A stretch of DNA of 59,322 nucleotides from IMG/VR virus record IMGVR_UViG_3300028197_000779, positions 1-59,322 of that record; one strand, written 5' to 3'. Positions 34,954 to 44,734 of this stretch are shown one piece after another. Made by a program: the position numbers and the translations under genes. Position 1 is the stretch's first letter; every line of letters begins with the position of its first letter. The notes below the pieces were generated by a model. The model searched no databases, was not told the DNA's origin, and saw only the letters and a list, made by a program, of their open reading frames with translations. This DNA is from a virus.

Positions 34954-36324
34954 TTATTTTTGTGGAATTGAGTCTCTAATTAAAAGCAATTCAGAAGTGC
35001 AACCTTTCTTGGTGTATGTAAACGTATGGGCAGCAATAAGATACTTCCCACTGAATTTTCTATCTCTCTCAACTTTTCTACCCGATTCGCGAGAAGCAGG
35101 GATGATGAGTTTGATAACGTCTCCTGCACAGAGTGCAGTGTTTCCAGGAACCTTGATAGTTAACTGAATTGCTTTCATTAGATTATATCTAGCCGCTGCA
35201 TATTCTGCAACTGCTAATGTGTCGAAAGTTTGAGTCCCATTGTCAGGATGTCCTTTCGGTTGACCTGATTCTCCTTGCTGATGTGCAAGTGCTGGGATAA
35301 TTCTCATCTTTTGTCTAGTAGGAGATGCACCTTCCCCCTTGACCTCTTCAGGCATGTCAAATGGGGGTGCATCATGAAGGGTCTTAGCTCTTCCAAAGAT
35401 AGAATCAAATGCGGTCTCTCTAGCAGCGTATATTGTACCTGAAGGTGAGGACTTATTATTGTTACTACCACCCGACTGTGTGATATTATTCAACGTTGGA
35501 ATGGTCAGACAGATACCAGTAGTAACTGTTTTATATGTGCCCATTCTCATATGTCTGAGATGATTCGCCTTGTCAGGATATTGAATAGATTCAATATTAT
35601 AGTAACCAGGATCTCCTTCTTCTAATTGACCCTGCTGTTTGTATGTATATACGAAGTCAAATCCCTGCTCACAGAGACTATCAATAGACTTAAAATTATA
35701 TCCTCTTTGATTCTCAAAGAATAAGAATCCAGATTGCTTCGCTTTACCCTTACCACTTGTTACCCTAGTAACCTTGTCGGAAACATATGAGATAAGGTCC
35801 ACAGGTCTCCAGTTAGGAGATACCACTATGACTCTAGAGTGTGACTCAAAATTCTCTTCTTTAATCCTCTTGCCAGGTGCTTTCAGATATTTCTTGCATA
35901 CATGCTTGGGGATATTCTCAACGTCCTTAGATCCACCCTCATCAATAGGACCAAATGCCTTGAAAACCTTATTCAACTCGTTATTATACATCTCTGGTGA
36001 GCAACAGAAGAGTTTATACATCTGTCCCCTTTCAGACTTAATGATGTCACCAATCTTATATACTTTGAATTCTAATTTTAATTCACCTTTACCGTCTGCT
36101 GATAAGGTTTTTAGATTAATATTAACAGGCTCACCACCTTGCAAATTCAAATTAAAGTCAATCGAGTCAACTACCGTAAGCTCAACACGAACAAATGGTG
36201 CCTCAATAGACTCATAGTAGAGAAAATTTGCCACCATTTCTTTAAGATCATACTCTTTTTCATCCCTGATAGTCGTCAGAGTAATCTTATTACATTTGAA
36301 TTGTCTAGACTGATTGTCTGCCAT
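34954..36324 (-). CDS. 27: Baseplate hub protein, gp27-like
   Basis: 456 residues, starting MADNQSRQFKCNKITLTTIRDEKEYDL. The beta-rich first half (FVRVELTVVDSIDFNLNLQGG, a hub ring motif) and WRPVDLISYVSDK resemble T4 gp27 and the P2 gpD hub family. It would form the trimeric ring that carries the gp5 spike. Start overlaps the stop of the 1041-aa protein (TAATG). Assignment by position and fold impression, not by a diagnostic motif. Confidence 0.65.
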   Translation of the reverse strand: MADNQSRQFKCNKITLTTIRDEKEYDLKEMVANFLYYESIEAPFVRVELTVVDSIDFNLNLQGGEPVNINLKTLSADGKGELKLEFKVYKIGDIIKSERGQMYKLFCCSPEMYNNELNKVFKAFGPIDEGGSKDVENIPKHVCKKYLKAPGKRIKEENFESHSRVIVVSPNWRPVDLISYVSDKVTRVTSGKGKAKQSGFLFFENQRGYNFKSIDSLCEQGFDFVYTYKQQGQLEEGDPGYYNIESIQYPDKANHLRHMRMGTYKTVTTGICLTIPTLNNITQSGGSNNNKSSPSGTIYAARETAFDSIFGRAKTLHDAPPFDMPEEVKGEGASPTRQKMRIIPALAHQQGESGQPKGHPDNGTQTFDTLAVAEYAAARYNLMKAIQLTIKVPGNTALCAGDVIKLIIPASRESGRKVERDRKFSGKYLIAAHTFTYTKKGCTSELLLIRDSIPQK

Positions 36325-39300
36325 TACATTAAGTTGCTAAGGGTCGAAGTAAACTCAGTCAAGACACCAAATTTAGGCATCAAGAAATCGTCAGCATCAT
36401 TCTTATTGTTACCTGGAACAATAATCTCATTCTCTTCACCACCCATTATGGGTGCTTCTTCCGTTTGAGTGACAAAAGGTTGCATTGCTGCATCACGAGA
36501 TGCAGTCATTGCCTTCAGATTATCTAGTTTAGTTTCAGTTTTCTTCTGCTGCTCCTCTTCAAGTTTCACACCAGGAGCAACCTTAGCAAACTCTGTAAGA
36601 CCTTTTGATAATAAACCACCATCTCTTTTACCCTCAACCTCTTTACCAAAGAGTCTATCGATGATGTCATCAGCAGTTTCCGGCTTATCCGTCTTAGTAT
36701 CATCTTTCGCTACTGATACCTTACGTTCTTTATCAGTAAGGACAGCATCCTTCATAGTCTCAGGTGCTGCAAACTCATTAGCAGCGCCAGGTTTGACAGA
36801 CATCTTAGTTGCAGGATCGATCTGGTAACCCTCTGTTGCTGCCCTCGCTGCATTTTGATCATTAGCACCTGCTGTTTTATGATCTTGAAATGATTTATTA
36901 AACCAGTATGCAGTATCTGCCTGTGGGTGAATCTTAATCGATTTGATATTTGCTGCTGTAGATGTCCCCTTCGTACCTAAAGTCTTATGTCTATTGGCAA
37001 TGTCAGTCTTAAGACCACCTGAGTTCATTACTGCCTTAAATTCGTCGGAGTCTGGTTTAACACCCTGCCTCTCTTCACCCATACCCATGAATCCTGCCTT
37101 AGTCCTTTTAGACATCGACTTAACAGATACCTCACCATCATTATATGCATAAGTTGTATAGTATGACTTATCATTTAAGACAACTCTACTTGCTTGCAAA
37201 CTATCTTTTTTATACTTTACAGGGTCAAACTTACCACCAGCAGCAAACTTAGGCAAATGTCCACCTTTAGAGAATCCAGGCATAGTGTATCCACCACGCG
37301 ATGCCTCACCCCATCTCTGAGATGTTAACCCAGGATTCATTCTGGTTGCAGGGGTGTCAAATGGCACAACAAATGCACCACCACCTGCAAATCCTTTCAT
37401 ACCAACCCACTCAGTGCCATGACCAATGAATGATGTGCTAGCACCACCATCTAATGACACAGGGTAACCAGACTGTGGACCAGAGATCCATCCACCCGTT
37501 GCTCTACCAGGGATCTGACCACCCTCAGAGAATCCAAAAACACTACCAACAGCACCCAGTAGACCCTGAGCAACTGCCTTCACACCTTTGAAGATGGGAT
37601 GCTCTACGATTGCTTTGAATAGTTTACCAAACAGTGCAATAGTACCGTCATCACCAGCAATTGCCTCTAGGAGTTTTTCTTCCCAACTTACTGATACCCT
37701 ATCTGCTTTTCCCTTATCCCCACCCTTCATATCTTCTTTATTGGCAGCACTACCACCAATAACAGAAGTTGATACACCAAAGATTTTAGCAAGGGGTGCG
37801 ATCATCGACCCCAGCATATTCCTGATAGGTGCAGGTAGGAATGCTCCGAATACTTTACCAATACCACCGATGGCAGTCATAATACCAACACCCAGTGCCT
37901 TGAATGGGAGTTGCATCAACTGACCGAAAGCTTTAGCTACCTTCGCAGTCTTGCGAAGTTGCTTTGCCATCTCATCTTGTAGGTTGAATGTCCCACCAGA
38001 TGCCATCTTAGGTTTGACCATCTTAGCGGTCTGGAAAGATCCGCCTGCTGCCTTACCCGACTTAGTAGCTTTATCTACTTCTTTCGTCTTAGGTGCAAAG
38101 AATTTCAGCACTGCAGTCAGTGCTTTAAGACCCAAGAATAGGGGTGCAAACATGACCTGAATACCAACACCCAGGATCTTACTGATCATTGGGAGGTGGG
38201 GCTCAATGAAATCGAGCACTTGGGTCATTACTGATCCAAGGATTTCAAAGAAACCACTTAGACTATCCTTAATAGGTGCCATCACCTGCTTAAAGACATC
38301 ACCAATCATGCTGAAGAATCTGCCGATTGGTTTGAAGATGGGTTCCATAAACCCACCGATTGCTTTACCTGCTTTACCACCAACGAATGCACCAGCAGCA
38401 CCGCCGATCATCCCACCAAGGGGACCACCAAGTTTGCTACCAATAGCTTCACCAGCCAGAGCACCGCCTGCAGTACCTGCACCAGCGCCAATTGCCTCTG
38501 CATCACTGTCACCAGCGCCTTTAGCACCAAGGTATGCACTAACGCCAAGACCACCAGCAATCAAACCCTTACCGAGTTTGCTGCCCATAAACTTCCTAAT
38601 CTTGGCACCAGCTGCCGCTGCCTTGCCGATGTTAAAGATACCCTTAACAAGACTTTTAACAACCCACCCAACAGTCTTCGCTGCTGCTAATGGATTTTTA
38701 AGAAATGCTATCCCTAGGAATATAGGAGCAGCAGATAATAGAAACTGTCCAAATCCCAATAACCCCTTAAGGGATATGGGATTCTCCATAAACTTCACCA
38801 GTCCATCAAATGCCGACCCTACAAGGAATGACGTTATCTTAAAGACAAACTTACCAATAGCAGCAAGTCCCTTTGCAAGTTTCTGGACTTTTTCTGGATT
38901 CTTAGAAACCCAATCTAATACGCCAAATGCAATGAATATCTTAAAGATACCACCTAAGAATCTAGCAATAGCACCAAAGAATCCACCAAAAGCAGACTTT
39001 GCTGCCTCCTTAAAATTCTGCATTGCTCCTTCTTTTTCCTTCTTCCCCTTCTTCTCGCTCTGATCTTCTGCCTCGCCTCTCTTTTTCTTTGCTTCTCTAC
39101 GTTTTTCCTCAGCAGTTTTCTTCTTCTCTCTATCTGCTTCTGCGGAGTTTGCTGCTACCTCTGCTTTCTTAACGATAGTATCGCCTTTGATCTTGGCAGA
39201 GACTCTATCCTTCATTGCTTGAGTCATTCCCTCCACTTGGAGAGCAATGCCGTTCATAGACGCGCCTAAGGAATTCAGACCAGAAGTAATAGTTCTGAAT

Positions 39301-39449
39301 GCTTTGTCCTGATCCTTAGCAATCTTACCTAACTCATCAGCAGCAGTAAGAGCAGTAAATTTCTTGCCACCACCAGTACCCTTATAAGATATCATCTTAT
39401 AAAGTTTTGCTTTCTGGACCTTAACTGCTGGTGCTTTTGGTGATGCCAT
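36324..39449 (-). CDS. Tape-measure/hub-like protein 1, 1041 aa
   Basis: Features: N-terminal head, then a highly charged coiled-coil (Lys/Glu/Ala-rich, residues about 90-150), a hydrophobic domain (FGGFFGAIARFLGGIFKIFIAFGVLDW), and a Gly/Ala-rich stretch (EAIGAGAGTAGGALAG...), typical of tail tape-measure proteins that also act in DNA ejection. It is a paralogue of the next gene upstream, sharing EPIFKPIGRFF against EPIFGPIGKAF. It occupies the position of T4 gp29/gp28 hub genes. Late promoter box at 39509-39516. Confidence 0.65.
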   Translation of the reverse strand: MASPKAPAVKVQKAKLYKMISYKGTGGGKKFTALTAADELGKIAKDQDKAFRTITSGLNSLGASMNGIALQVEGMTQAMKDRVSAKIKGDTIVKKAEVAANSAEADREKKKTAEEKRREAKKKRGEAEDQSEKKGKKEKEGAMQNFKEAAKSAFGGFFGAIARFLGGIFKIFIAFGVLDWVSKNPEKVQKLAKGLAAIGKFVFKITSFLVGSAFDGLVKFMENPISLKGLLGFGQFLLSAAPIFLGIAFLKNPLAAAKTVGWVVKSLVKGIFNIGKAAAAGAKIRKFMGSKLGKGLIAGGLGVSAYLGAKGAGDSDAEAIGAGAGTAGGALAGEAIGSKLGGPLGGMIGGAAGAFVGGKAGKAIGGFMEPIFKPIGRFFSMIGDVFKQVMAPIKDSLSGFFEILGSVMTQVLDFIEPHLPMISKILGVGIQVMFAPLFLGLKALTAVLKFFAPKTKEVDKATKSGKAAGGSFQTAKMVKPKMASGGTFNLQDEMAKQLRKTAKVAKAFGQLMQLPFKALGVGIMTAIGGIGKVFGAFLPAPIRNMLGSMIAPLAKIFGVSTSVIGGSAANKEDMKGGDKGKADRVSVSWEEKLLEAIAGDDGTIALFGKLFKAIVEHPIFKGVKAVAQGLLGAVGSVFGFSEGGQIPGRATGGWISGPQSGYPVSLDGGASTSFIGHGTEWVGMKGFAGGGAFVVPFDTPATRMNPGLTSQRWGEASRGGYTMPGFSKGGHLPKFAAGGKFDPVKYKKDSLQASRVVLNDKSYYTTYAYNDGEVSVKSMSKRTKAGFMGMGEERQGVKPDSDEFKAVMNSGGLKTDIANRHKTLGTKGTSTAANIKSIKIHPQADTAYWFNKSFQDHKTAGANDQNAARAATEGYQIDPATKMSVKPGAANEFAAPETMKDAVLTDKERKVSVAKDDTKTDKPETADDIIDRLFGKEVEGKRDGGLLSKGLTEFAKVAPGVKLEEEQQKKTETKLDNLKAMTASRDAAMQPFVTQTEEAPIMGGEENEIIVPGNNKNDADDFLMPKFGVLTEFTSTLSNLM

Positions 39450-39452
39450 CTA

Positions 39453-42400
39453 TTACTGACTGAGAAGTGGCGATGGAGAGGTATACACTGCGCTAGTGCC
39501 CCCTCCTGTATTTATCGTCTGTTTAACCTTTTGGATAACTAAACGCTCTGTAACAATGGGGAGAATGGTTGCTTGTTCATCACGCTGTGCTTTGTCTCTA
39601 ATTGTTTTCAATTTAGTGACAGCTTTCTCTTTAGAAGATGCCATCTGCGTAATCTTAGAAGTGGATACGGTTGATGTAGTAACAGGGTTTCCAGGGAGAT
39701 CTCCTGCGGATTTAGTGGGATTATCTTTAGACACGTTGGTGCTGATCTTTGTCAAGGCAGATGTTAAACCTGTCTTGAATGCCTCCAACATCTCTTCAAG
39801 AGTCTTAGGTTTTTCAGGTTTTATATTTTTAGCAGATTGTTTTGATTCTGATGACTGAGTTGAGGTATCACCACCACCTGAATTACTAGAGTTACTAGAG
39901 GAGGATGTACTACTTCCATCTGTTTCTTTAACAGTGGAGTCGCCACCCATATATCCGCGTGCCTTAGCACGCAAGATGTTACCACCCGATCCGTCTTCAC
40001 CACCCTTAGTCAAACGTAAGAGGTCCCATCGAGTGCCATCACCACCCCACATAGTAGGACCATAGTTATCATTACGAGGTAGTTGACCATCTTTACCAGC
40101 CGCTGCTTCAGCGTGAGTCATCACATTCTTGATATTGATATCTGAAGCATTCCAACCCCATGCTTTAGCAGCGTTAGCAATCTCTTTCGCTAGACCCTCA
40201 ATCTGGACATCCTTAACAGGGACAGTCCAATAATCTGGATCACCGCCCATGGCAGCAATACTCATGCCAATACCCTGACTATTTCTTAGATATGTGTGGG
40301 CAACACCAGATCTTTGATCGTATGGGTGTGCTTTGAAGATACTACCATCACCCTGCACAATAGAGTGATACTTATTCTTATATTTTGCACTATATCCACC
40401 ACCTGTCCAGTGTAGGAAGATCTTTCCACCCTTAGCGTATCCTCTAACAGCACTAAATCCATTTTCACCACCTGACATCCTATCCTCAGAGTAGGCACCC
40501 TGTTTAGGACGTTTTTTAATCTTGCCCCCCTTTGCCAACTGTTGAAAAGCATCATACATCATGTCGGGTTTGATGTGTGCTACATTGACGCCATCTCCAG
40601 CATAAAAACTAGCACCACCATCATCCTTTGGAATTGCAGCCCAAACTCTTGACAGTCTGAGCATTGCCTCCTTGGGATTCTCCTTCGCCATCTGCTTGGA
40701 GACCTGTGCCTGACCAGGACCAATTAAATATTCAGCAATCTTCTGCTGATTCTCTGCATTGTATAAATCTGTTTTGGGGTCTAGACCTACTGCTACTGCT
40801 CTCTGATTAAGATATTCTGGTAAGTTTTGCCATGCACCAACAGCACCTGTTGCTTGACGAGCAACCTGACCAATAGGCATTTTAGATGCACCTGGCAACG
40901 TAGTGCCTGGATACATTGCATCATATCCACCAGAACCAGATTCATACTTTAGGATTAGATTAAGTACTGGGGACCATCCACCTTCAACCTCTTGTGATGT
41001 AGATGTAGATGTGGACCTAGCAGAAGAAGGTGCAGGTCCTGAAGATGGGGTTTGCCCTGCTCCTCTCTGTTGCTCAACCTTTGTAGCATATTGTGGGTCA
41101 AATATCTTGATACCATTGATGAGTAGTTTGTTTAACCCCTCACTAATTGCTATGAAAGTATTCTCTTTATAGGAAAGATTCTTTATATTCTCAACTTTTT
41201 TCTTTTCACTCTGAGGTGCTTGGAATTGCACACTATTACTCACACCACCAGCAGTGCCACCACCGCCAGTACTGACCTGCACACCTAGTCCACCAGCAAT
41301 CTTTTGAATGTCAGGTGCTAAGGAAGATTTTACTTTATTACCAACAAATCCAAATGCACCAAATGATCCAACTATGGCTTTAAGGTAGAGACCACCCACC
41401 ATGCCCAGCATGTCAGGGTGACTACCAAACTGCATGGCACCACCCGCTGCCATCTCTACAGGACCGCCTGCTGCCTTCTTATTCTCTTTGTCGAAGTCAA
41501 ACAGGTTGAATGTCAACGCATCAGCAATACCACCTGCCACAGAAGCAGGATTTATCAGACGCTTGGCATTATTGACGACAAACTGCACAGTGCTACCAAT
41601 AGCATCCATCAGTCCACCGAAGATAAACCCAGCGAAGTCACCAAGGATCTTGGCAGCATCCATTAGGACTTTGCCAAGTTGACCTATCATATTAAATATC
41701 AATCCAAGCGGCTCAGCGAGCTGCTGGAATAGAGGTCCGATGGTCATCTTGACCACCTCAAACATCATCTTAAATGCTTTACCAATAGGTCCGAAGATAG
41801 GCTCCATGATCGGACCTAACTCTTTACCTACCCACTCACCTAAGAAACTACCGATCGCATTACCAACGATAGGTGCAAAGGGTCCCAGGAATGGTCCTAA
41901 GAGTGCTGTGCCAGCAATACCGCCAACCAAACCACCTATACCCTGACCGACACCAGCACCAACAGCAGAGGATGCTTTCTCACCGCTTGCAAGACCTGCT
42001 GCGATCCTTCCAGCGCCTCCTACGACGCTCATACCGACGTTTAACTTACCGCCAAGCTTACCAAATGCTTTGTTAGCACCAGCACCAAATCTTTTGCGTG
42101 CTGCACTTGCTTTACCTTTATACTTAGAGAAACGACCTTCTTTACCAAATCTGCCCTCAAATGCTTTTTGAGCACCAGGATTCTTTCTGCCTGCCTTTGC
42201 GGCAGACTTCTTCATCTTCTCGTATTCTTCTTTGGAGTAGATAACTCCAGTCTTCTTGTCTCTATATCCGCTCTTTCTTACTTTCTGGTTAGCATCTTGC
42301 TCAGCAGACTGTCTACCAGACGACTCAAAGATCATCCTCAGACGATTAACATCCTTGAGGAGTTTCCATGGCATGATCATATACTGTGCTGTCCTAAGCA

Positions 42401-43061
42401 CAGCAAGTCCACCCATCAGTTGCACAACTCCAAGTATACCTCGGAATCCACGTTTGATAGAACCTTCATCAGTATAATTACCAAAAACGTTAGTCAGACC
42501 ATCCATGATCATCCCAACGCCCATCTTGGCAACTTTGAAAGCAAACTTGCCTATGGTGAATAATACCTTGAATACCTTTACCGCACCCTCAGCATTTTTA
42601 GGGTTACTTAACCAATTTAATGCTCCAAATAAAATAAAATATTTGAAGACACGGAAAATACCACTCAAGAATCGACCGAGCATACCCATTTTGGGTGCTT
42701 CTTTCTTGATTGCCTTACGACCTTCTTCTTTACCTTCCTCTACGCCCTTTTCTGCTTCATTCTCTAAGCGTGCTCGTTTCTTCTTTTGGAAAGTTTTTTT
42801 GAAATCCCTCATGGATCCAGTCCACTTGGTCTTATCTTTCTTATCTTTCTTTTTAATATCCGAGACTTCTTCCTTAGAAGTGTCTGAAAGATACTCTTTT
42901 TCAAACTTTAGAAGCTCAGTCGTATCATAAAAACTCTTGGCAATACCATCGGTCACGCTCCCCAGGCGATTGATGCTTTTACGCACCTGATCCATGTTTT
43001 GAGCGATACCTGACTTACCAGTTATCGGTTGAATTTTTATGAAACTACGGATTGCTGCCAT
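39453..43061 (-). CDS. Tape-measure-like protein 2 with two cell-wall hydrolase domains
   Basis: 1202 residues. The first 570 resemble the neighbouring tape-measure-like protein: charged coiled-coil, hydrophobic segment (FLSGIFRVFKYFILFGALNWL), Gly-rich membrane-active stretch. Residues about 690-840 form a lysozyme/transglycosylase-like domain (LKYESGSGGYDAMYPG, VGAWQNLPEYLN). Residues about 880-1010 form an N-acetylmuramoyl-L-alanine amidase-like domain: HWTGGGYSAKY, YHSIVQGDGSIF, AHPYDQ and MTHAEAA. These likely cut peptidoglycan during DNA entry. Starts in a TAATG overlap with the gp51-like frame. Confidence 0.72.
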   Translation of the reverse strand: MAAIRSFIKIQPITGKSGIAQNMDQVRKSINRLGSVTDGIAKSFYDTTELLKFEKEYLSDTSKEEVSDIKKKDKKDKTKWTGSMRDFKKTFQKKKRARLENEAEKGVEEGKEEGRKAIKKEAPKMGMLGRFLSGIFRVFKYFILFGALNWLSNPKNAEGAVKVFKVLFTIGKFAFKVAKMGVGMIMDGLTNVFGNYTDEGSIKRGFRGILGVVQLMGGLAVLRTAQYMIMPWKLLKDVNRLRMIFESSGRQSAEQDANQKVRKSGYRDKKTGVIYSKEEYEKMKKSAAKAGRKNPGAQKAFEGRFGKEGRFSKYKGKASAARKRFGAGANKAFGKLGGKLNVGMSVVGGAGRIAAGLASGEKASSAVGAGVGQGIGGLVGGIAGTALLGPFLGPFAPIVGNAIGSFLGEWVGKELGPIMEPIFGPIGKAFKMMFEVVKMTIGPLFQQLAEPLGLIFNMIGQLGKVLMDAAKILGDFAGFIFGGLMDAIGSTVQFVVNNAKRLINPASVAGGIADALTFNLFDFDKENKKAAGGPVEMAAGGAMQFGSHPDMLGMVGGLYLKAIVGSFGAFGFVGNKVKSSLAPDIQKIAGGLGVQVSTGGGGTAGGVSNSVQFQAPQSEKKKVENIKNLSYKENTFIAISEGLNKLLINGIKIFDPQYATKVEQQRGAGQTPSSGPAPSSARSTSTSTSQEVEGGWSPVLNLILKYESGSGGYDAMYPGTTLPGASKMPIGQVARQATGAVGAWQNLPEYLNQRAVAVGLDPKTDLYNAENQQKIAEYLIGPGQAQVSKQMAKENPKEAMLRLSRVWAAIPKDDGGASFYAGDGVNVAHIKPDMMYDAFQQLAKGGKIKKRPKQGAYSEDRMSGGENGFSAVRGYAKGGKIFLHWTGGGYSAKYKNKYHSIVQGDGSIFKAHPYDQRSGVAHTYLRNSQGIGMSIAAMGGDPDYWTVPVKDVQIEGLAKEIANAAKAWGWNASDINIKNVMTHAEAAAGKDGQLPRNDNYGPTMWGGDGTRWDLLRLTKGGEDGSGGNILRAKARGYMGGDSTVKETDGSSTSSSSNSSNSGGGDTSTQSSESKQSAKNIKPEKPKTLEEMLEAFKTGLTSALTKISTNVSKDNPTKSAGDLPGNPVTTSTVSTSKITQMASSKEKAVTKLKTIRDKAQRDEQATILPIVTERLVIQKVKQTINTGGGTSAVYTSPSPLLSQ
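39509..39516 (-). promoter_or_regulatory. T4-type late promoter box
   Basis: GATAAATA on the minus strand inside the C-terminal coding end of the 1202-aa gene, about 60 bases before the ATG of the 1041-aa gene. Confidence 0.5.
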
Positions 43062-43258
43062 TAGAGGGACATGCGTGACTGATCTTGGTTTTGCCGTCTT
43101 TCTTCCTCGGCAATATGTGCGAGGAGAAGATTCACATATACATCACGTTCCCACGGTATCATATTCTCTAACTCGGTCAGTGAATATTTGTGGTGCTGCA
43201 TCAAAGCAAAGTTTGTTTTATAGTAATTTTCAAGACTATCGTGCAGTAGGGCTATGCG
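43061..43258 (-). CDS. 51: gp51-like baseplate assembly frame, probably made by frameshift
   Basis: 65-codon frame (RIALLHDSLENYYKTNFALMQHHKYSL...) in the -1 frame of the gp26 gene. The first in-frame ATG is codon 20 and lacks a Shine-Dalgarno; the preceding codons are coding-like and no standard start lies nearer. The C-terminus runs to TAA overlapping the tape-measure-like gene's ATG. Similar to the short gp51-type catalyst of hub assembly in cyanophages, from memory. It is placed as the end of a gp26-gp51 fusion by -1 slippage at 43258-43264. A short internal start would be the alternative. Confidence 0.6.
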   Translation of the reverse strand, partial: RIALLHDSLENYYKTNFALMQHHKYSLTELENMIPWERDVYVNLLLAHIAEEERRQNQDQSRMSL

Positions 43259-43956
43259 AAAAAACTCGCGAGTCCTTCAAGCACAACATCAGATACGACT
43301 TTGGTGTTAGGATTAACAACTTCAAGTGTGTATGATAGTTTAGGCATAGTCTCAAAGAATTTCTGGATTTTCCCAAACTGCTCAGAATTCAAGTCTTCCA
43401 AGAATTCAAGTGCTTCTTTCTTAGTGAAGTTGTCATAGACTTCTTCCTTATCGTAAACACTTTCAATACACCCTGCTGCCAACTCGAAAACGTCTTCGAT
43501 ATTGGGATTATCCGACATATTTTGACTGATGAATACATCAATCGACGGATACTTCATAACAATACCTACATTATCGTCAAGAAGCATTTTCTTCTCATGA
43601 TCTGCAGGAATAACTACCTCAACGTCATTTAGAGGTATCATTACTTCGACCTGGGTCTCTTCATCATCAGGGCAGGTGATTTTGAATTCACTTGCTTCAC
43701 CAACAGCAGTAGCACGAATGCGAAGGAAGATGTATTCAATCTCGAATGTTGCGAGATCTTCAACCTTACCTTTTAGGTTGGTGCAATTTCTGATGATAGT
43801 CTTAACTGCTTTAATCATCTGCTTGTCGTCTTGCGACTCCATAGCGAGATATAGCAGTTTTTCCTCTTTAACAAGGAAAGGTCTATATGTGACTTTAGTG
43901 CCTGTGATAGGCAACGTCAAATCATACTCGGGGATAGCGAGCTTAGGTAAAGGCAT
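43252..43956 (-). CDS. 26: Baseplate hub subunit gp26-like
   Basis: 234 residues, T4 gp26 family (Pfam T4_baseplate): MPLPKLAIPEYDLTLPITG, RPFLVKEEKLLYLAMESQDD, IEYIFLRIRATAVGE, and a C-terminal DVVLEGLASFFA. Forms part of the hub around the tape-measure/spike. Good Shine-Dalgarno (GGAG) before the ATG. Its last codons contain the slippery heptamer T TTT TTC immediately before GCA TAG, so a fraction of ribosomes could read into the gp51-like frame. Confidence 0.85.
   Translation of the reverse strand: MPLPKLAIPEYDLTLPITGTKVTYRPFLVKEEKLLYLAMESQDDKQMIKAVKTIIRNCTNLKGKVEDLATFEIEYIFLRIRATAVGEASEFKITCPDDEETQVEVMIPLNDVEVVIPADHEKKMLLDDNVGIVMKYPSIDVFISQNMSDNPNIEDVFELAAGCIESVYDKEEVYDNFTKKEALEFLEDLNSEQFGKIQKFFETMPKLSYTLEVVNPNTKVVSDVVLEGLASFFA
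43258..43264 (-). promoter_or_regulatory. Probable -1 programmed ribosomal frameshift site
   Basis: Heptamer T TTT TTC (X XXY YYZ) in the gp26 frame, two codons before the TAG stop. Slippage by one base gives CGC ATA GCC and continues into the gp51-like frame. No stem-loop downstream was worked out by hand. Confidence 0.65.
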
Positions 43957-43981: not shown

Positions 43982-44734
43982 TTAGGTGCCAAAGAAAGAT
44001 GAATCTATCTGATCGGTAGAGAATCCTAAACGAGAAAATACCTCATCAAAGTTGCGAATGACCTTATCATTGGCATCAGGTTTGAATGACAGCACATCTT
44101 CTGCAACTGTATCAAATCTAAATCTCTCATATTTGAAGTCAACATCTATCTTTAATAGATCTGCTGGTCCGTTGTTGAGAGACATTGCTGAAATGTCAAA
44201 AGGATATGCGCCATACATCTGCCATACTGCAGTAGATCTATTCATCCGCTGCTCAAATTGGACTGGTTGTCCAGTACCACTATTTGCCATACCTTTGTAT
44301 ATAACATTACCACCATTCTCCCATTTTAGGATCTGAATCTGTGATGTATACTCATCGTAGAATGTAACTCTGTTTTCAGCATCACTGGCAGTCATATTCA
44401 TCCAATTCTCAAAGAATTGTCGATGATACATATCTTTCGTCATAATGAAAGACATTCGGACTTCTTGCTTCTGCTGACCATATGCATAATCATATGGCAT
44501 ACCAATATTCTTGACTGATTGCGTCTTAATCCTTCTGGCAGGAATTGTTACACTATCAGCGAAGTAATTGATAGATTCGTAATGCTCTCGATACTGAGGT
44601 GCCGTACCAGTAGCATACATCATCGCAGGAAGAGTGATCTCTACCGAAAATAGATTGGATTTTGCAATATCCTTCTCACCACTTGCTACTAGATCAGCAA
44701 ATCGGAGAAAACTATTGGGATTTCTGTAACTCAT
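43982..44734 (-). CDS. 54: Baseplate-tail tube initiator, gp54-like
   Basis: 250 residues with the tail-tube fold seen in gp54/gp48/gp19: YFADSVTIPARRIKTQSV, QEVRMSFIMTKDMYHRQFFENWM, and a conserved VTFYDEYTSQIQI strand pair. It caps the baseplate and starts tail-tube assembly. Its start sits one base from the upstream gene's stop (TAATG). Another tail-tube-like protein (gp48) is encoded divergently nearby. Confidence 0.75.
   Translation of the reverse strand: MSYRNPNSFLRFADLVASGEKDIAKSNLFSVEITLPAMMYATGTAPQYREHYESINYFADSVTIPARRIKTQSVKNIGMPYDYAYGQQKQEVRMSFIMTKDMYHRQFFENWMNMTASDAENRVTFYDEYTSQIQILKWENGGNVIYKGMANSGTGQPVQFEQRMNRSTAVWQMYGAYPFDISAMSLNNGPADLLKIDVDFKYERFRFDTVAEDVLSFKPDANDKVIRNFDEVFSRLGFSTDQIDSSFFGT

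Follow-up and report, generated by a model that had tools for sequence, protein, structure and literature searches.

A putative -1 ribosomal frameshift and tail assembly chaperone pair at the gp26-gp51 locus of a T4-like cyanophage-type virus

The gp26-like gene of a T4-like virus of cyanophage type ends in a slippery heptamer, T TTT TTC, at which, judging from sequence comparison, a -1 programmed ribosomal frameshift very probably gives rise to a tail assembly chaperone in two forms; the slippage itself, its efficiency and the chaperone role of the products are what we infer here. The DNA analysed (the window) is the full 59,322 bases of the source virus record, a fragment of a T4-like cyanophage-type virus whose nearest named relatives are in Kyanoviridae, e.g., S-SZBM1 and P-TIM40. 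The features of the locus, from upstream to downstream, are as follows.

43982-44734, minus strand: tail-tube-like protein, directly upstream of gp26 (PF23849 Phage_TTP_2, E = 1.2e-9; phrog_45 tail tube, E = 1.4e-40)
43252-43956, minus strand: gp26-like gene in the zero frame, 234 aa, putative short form TAC-N (PF12322, E = 7.8e-70; phrog_150, E = 1.6e-75)
43273-43278, minus strand: Shine-Dalgarno (SD)-like GAAGGA, ~8 nt before the heptamer (weak, -5.8 kcal/mol; many relatives have a stronger GGAGGG)
43258-43264, minus strand: slippery heptamer T TTT TTC in the gp26 frame
43252-43254, minus strand: zero-frame stop TAG, one codon (GCA) past the heptamer
43064-43258, minus strand: -1 frame extension of 65 codons, gp51-like C-terminal domain (phrog_634, E = 4.5e-31; phrog_150 columns 230-276, E = 2.1e-7)
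43199-43201, minus strand: earliest ATG in the second frame, 17 codons beyond the gp26 stop
43063-43061, minus strand: TAA stop of the -1 frame
39453-43061, minus strand: tape-measure-like protein of 1202 aa immediately downstream, overlapping the -1 frame at TAATG; it has an amidase-like domain

The gp26-like protein matches PF12322 (T4_baseplate) with 235 bits against a cut-off of 24.5, covering profile positions 2-219 of 219, and its frame ends AGT TTT TTC GCA TAG. The preliminary description had put T TTT TTC in this frame just before TAG, and it lies there, at 43264-43258 on the minus strand, with the GCA codon between. It had also proposed that a -1 slip opens a 65-codon frame ending at a tape-measure-like start, and this too is borne out: after the slip, reading continues as CGC ATA GCC and onward for 65 codons (43258-43064) to a TAATG overlap, in which the stop of the -1 frame shares one base with the tape-measure-like ATG. 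The predicted fusion, gp26-51, consists of the first 233 gp26 residues and the 65-codon extension, 298 aa in all, and the peptide spanning its junction would read ...LASFFRIALLHD....

In the window and its relatives the gene order is tube, gp26, gp51, tape measure, placing the putative chaperone pair between a tube-like gene upstream and a tape-measure-like gene downstream. Two successive very long proteins (39453-43061 and 36324-39449) follow the chaperone, both matching PHROG families named "endolysin". The amidase-like domain lies in the first (39453-43061), and either protein is a candidate tape measure.

As a bare 7-mer, TTTTTTC is not enriched, with 9 copies in the window versus 12.8 expected. 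Its placement in gp26 is distinctive: the genes of the window (~17,200 codons) hold 38 in-frame X XXY YYZ heptamers, and the gp26 site is the sole one from which the -1 frame continues past its gene's stop. Conservation in relatives, to which the preliminary description had tied its proposal, extends to 172 of 173 loci, which carry T TTT TTC or T TTT TTT; these loci come mostly from IMG/VR, range in protein identity down to ~25%, and are not independent counts because they are related and partly redundant. A first set of 97 loci comprised the window, 80 IMG/VR contigs and 16 phage records, including Vibrio, Pseudomonas, Stenotrophomonas, Sinorhizobium, Agrobacterium and Cronobacter phages. Here T TTT TTC was present in 95 and T TTT TTT in one (phiM12), and the single locus with neither was Vibrio phage 1.255.O (Ackermannviridae). 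The second set, 76 more divergent loci that are mostly 30-40% identical to the phiM12 query, was gathered with phiM12 gp26 and a KVP40-like gp26, the latter finding only two IMG/VR loci; all 76 carry T TTT TTY (T TTT TTC in 62, T TTT TTT in 14). In six second-set loci (L107, L133, L152, L153, L155 and L167) the zero-frame stop lies 31 nt past the heptamer start, compared with the usual ~10, and the tail of the short chaperone would therefore be slightly longer.

The site encodes a Phe-Phe pair that is itself conserved, and one could suppose that TTT TTC is kept for these residues alone, with the -1 frame a coincidence or an assembly error. We regard this explanation as having a negligible chance of being correct, since the codons used at the site differ strikingly from those of the other Phe-Phe pairs in the same genes, which in the first set are written TTCTTT 63 times, TTTTTT 24 times, TTCTTC 12 times and TTTTTC only twice. 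Moreover, the wobble base preceding the pair is T in all: the heptamer takes its first T from a codon that may specify Ser, Ala, Asp, Asn, Thr or His, yet this codon ends in T without exception in both sets. The two-frame layout is also common to more than 170 loci from different assemblies, which argues against an assembly error.

The preliminary description held that the second frame has no good start codon of its own. Indeed, no ATG, GTG or TTG occurs in it before TTG 43204 and ATG 43201, and the sole near-cognate codon upstream of TTG 43204 is a CTG. The segment ahead of the internal ATG, whose conservation had been named as a check on the proposal, proved to be conserved as protein in the -1 frame: within the clade of the window, the 17 codons from the gp26 stop to the ATG show 487, 248 and 1114 pairwise differences at codon positions 1, 2 and 3, respectively, and the window and two of its relatives (L007 and L008) have the same residues throughout this segment, with synonymous changes only. 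The -1 ORF overlaps gp26, is protein-conserved from the slip and lacks a start of its own, and its product matches phrog_634, the baseplate hub assembly catalyst (gp51) family. On this evidence the second frame codes for protein all the way from the slip. An automatic annotation would probably start gp51 at ATG 43201 or TTG 43204.

A competing explanation dispenses with frameshifting and makes gp51 a gene of its own, expressed through termination-reinitiation or from an internal start. Public records do annotate gp51 as its own CDS, and many relatives have an ATG at +2, +5 or +8 of the gp26 stop; such an ATG, no more than 8 nt from the stop, occurs in 60 of 96 first-set loci and could also start a separate gp51. 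In the heptamer-less Ackermannviridae phage 1.255.O, the second frame (L094:2118-2294) opens with a TAATG overlap, and termination-reinitiation may therefore be possible in that phage. Against the separate-gene explanation, the window and 58 of the 76 divergent loci have no ATG for at least the first 12 codons past the slip, and in the clade of the window this segment is protein-conserved all the same. The position of the first ATG also shifts among relatives (+2, +5, +8, +14, +23, +35, +41, +50, +53 or +92), while the heptamer does not. A further argument comes from T4 gp51 (below), which contains a gp26-like domain in frame. Taken together, we consider a separate gp51 very unlikely, and frameshifting at the heptamer the better account of the second frame.

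Comparison of the relatives points to RNA elements on both sides of the heptamer. Upstream, the codons of an LEGL segment favor an SD-like GGAGG ending ~10 nt before the heptamer: Glu at the SD-like position is encoded by GAG in 65 of 89 cases, compared with 34% elsewhere, and the mean anti-SD energy is -7.3 versus -5.9 kcal/mol for synonymous shuffles, with a z of -8.9 that is inflated by relatedness. Downstream, folding was compared with shuffles that keep the -1 frame protein, revealing a sharp local minimum 9-15 nt from the heptamer start (mean z of about -2.3 to -2.5) against background means between -0.05 and -0.8 across gp26 and between -0.2 and -0.7 in later parts of the -1 frame. In one clade of 12 loci, a hairpin between columns 13-23 and 33-43 is 96% paired, with one pair seen as UA, GC and AU; in a second clade of seven loci, an 8-bp hairpin is 95% paired, and both bases of one pair have changed. 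Covariation in these hairpins is modest, yet slid controls pair at only 24-61%.

These elements bear on the possibility that RNA polymerase, rather than the ribosome, slips on the T6 run and yields a shifted mRNA. The run is homopolymeric, and the dnaX products of Thermus arise by transcriptional slippage (PMC5009743), but in most loci it is exactly six T followed by C, whereas bacterial slippage has been described on runs of 9 A or T (PMC5009743). Polymerase slippage would also not need an SD-like element and a downstream hairpin, spaced as expected for ribosomal frameshifting. We therefore judge it extremely unlikely and retain ribosomal frameshifting as the explanation.

A predicted downstream hairpin is present in most relatives (mean z of -2.4). 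In the window (z of about +0.2), L007 and L008, it was not detected by pseudoknot-free folding (43208-43255 in the window), z for the three lying between about -0.3 and +1.1 versus synonymous shuffles. Because no downstream structure stands out and the SD-like element is weak, frameshifting in the window may be inefficient or may use other signals. A tentative reading, somewhat less likely than not, is that T4-like phages share a three-part recoding cassette (SD-like GGAGG, T TTT TTY and a hairpin) whose stimulators differ by lineage; the clade of the window might have lost the hairpin and tune the ratio of short to long form with nothing but the slippery site and a weak SD-like element, and Tevenvirinae might have exchanged recoding for two genes. 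A longer downstream structure in the window was also considered and rejected, none being evident at 36-90 nt. The MFE fold of L007 contains a 5-bp CUGCA/UGCAG long-range pairing.

In T4 itself, genes 26 and 51 are two distinct genes with divergent transcription. T4 gp26 and T4 gp51 each match PF12322 over the full profile; T4 gp51 covers positions 13-280 of the 282 in phrog_150 and also matches phrog_634, and T4 gp26 covers positions 14-235. When aligned with the frameshift fusions using MAFFT, T4 gp51 is colinear with them end to end, the junction included, and so resembles a natural in-frame fusion, and T4 gp26 stops at the slip site, indicating that gp26 and gp26-51 are the counterparts of a putative short and a putative long chaperone that T4 encodes as two separate genes. 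The T4 (Tevenvirinae) proteins thus belong to the same family, with gp26 as the short and gp51 as the long form, but the two forms come from two genes without a frameshift. Matches covering at least 80% of T4 gp51 occur in 1334 phage records and, among the matches listed, include Enterobacteria, Acinetobacter and similar T4-group phages. The preliminary description had cast gp26-gp51 as a T4-like version of the lambda-type layout, which holds for a frameshift in cyanophages and several other T4-like lineages and fails for T4, with its separate divergent genes. The data fit a picture in which the frameshift persists in many T4-like lineages, marine cyanophages among them, and the group of T4 has two paralogous genes instead.

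In the mechanism that we propose, most ribosomes would stop at TAG and release the 234-aa gp26 form (TAC-N), while a minority would shift one base backward at T TTT TTC, read past TAG and add the 65-residue gp51-like domain, yielding the 298-aa fusion (TAC-NC). By analogy with lambda gpG/gpGT, a -1 frameshift tail assembly chaperone whose mechanism is summarised in PMC5009743, the part common to both forms would coat the tape measure protein and the rare form would use its C-terminal extension to recruit tail tube subunits; neither form would be found in the virion. An AlphaFold model of gp26 (pLDDT 86, from a 53-sequence alignment) has as its two best PDB matches the HK97 tail assembly chaperone gp13 (2OB9), with probabilities of 0.91 and 0.82, E-values of 0.48 and 0.93, and TM-scores by target of 0.54 and 0.52. 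This match of a predicted structure is suggestive of a chaperone; a sequence search of the PDB returned nothing useful. A tail assembly chaperone is the best reading of the pair because gene order, the two-form layout and the HK97 gp13 match point to it together.

The locus resembles lambda G/GT in having a -1 slip close to where the first ORF ends, an extension frame entered from that ORF, and a position upstream of the tape measure gene. It differs in that its proteins belong to the PF12322 (T4 gp26) family, the likeness to lambda being one of layout, and in that the site is T TTT TTC with a stop one codon later. In P2, E/E' is the counterpart of the lambda -1 frameshift chaperone pair. According to a 2016 review of frameshifting, the tail-chaperone frameshift is widely conserved among phages with long tails "except T4" (PMC5009743). 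For T4-like phages, the genes of these chaperones were identified by Vladimirov, Gautam and Davidson (2022, Virology 566:9-15), as represented in two papers that cite this work (PMC10885494, PMC12846349): the PRFect paper (PMC10885494) cites it in connection with T4-like phages that have a short gene and a fused long one, and the Adele paper (PMC12846349) in connection with the poly-T slippery signals that TAC-N genes of T4-like phages carry. Phage Adele and its relatives in Vandenendeviridae/Andersonviridae (PMC12846349) similarly have a conserved poly-T -1 site ending TAC-N and an uninterrupted -1 frame to the tape measure; they belong, however, to other phage families, and their motif is GTTTTT. 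In the literature that we found, where Vladimirov et al. is represented by the papers citing it, there was no description of the site in cyanophages. As those papers convey it, the general idea of frameshift chaperones in T4-like phages is already in the literature, and the site described here adds to a known kind.

In the cyanophage records examined, gp51 appears as a separate short gene, sometimes begun at an internal ATG; at least one other T4-like record omits it. We propose that gp51 be annotated as a joined CDS with gp26. In the record of Cronobacter phage LPCS28 (Nanhuvirus), the -1 frame extension (L091:2211-2375) is unannotated, so that the stretch from gp26 to the next long gene is left empty.
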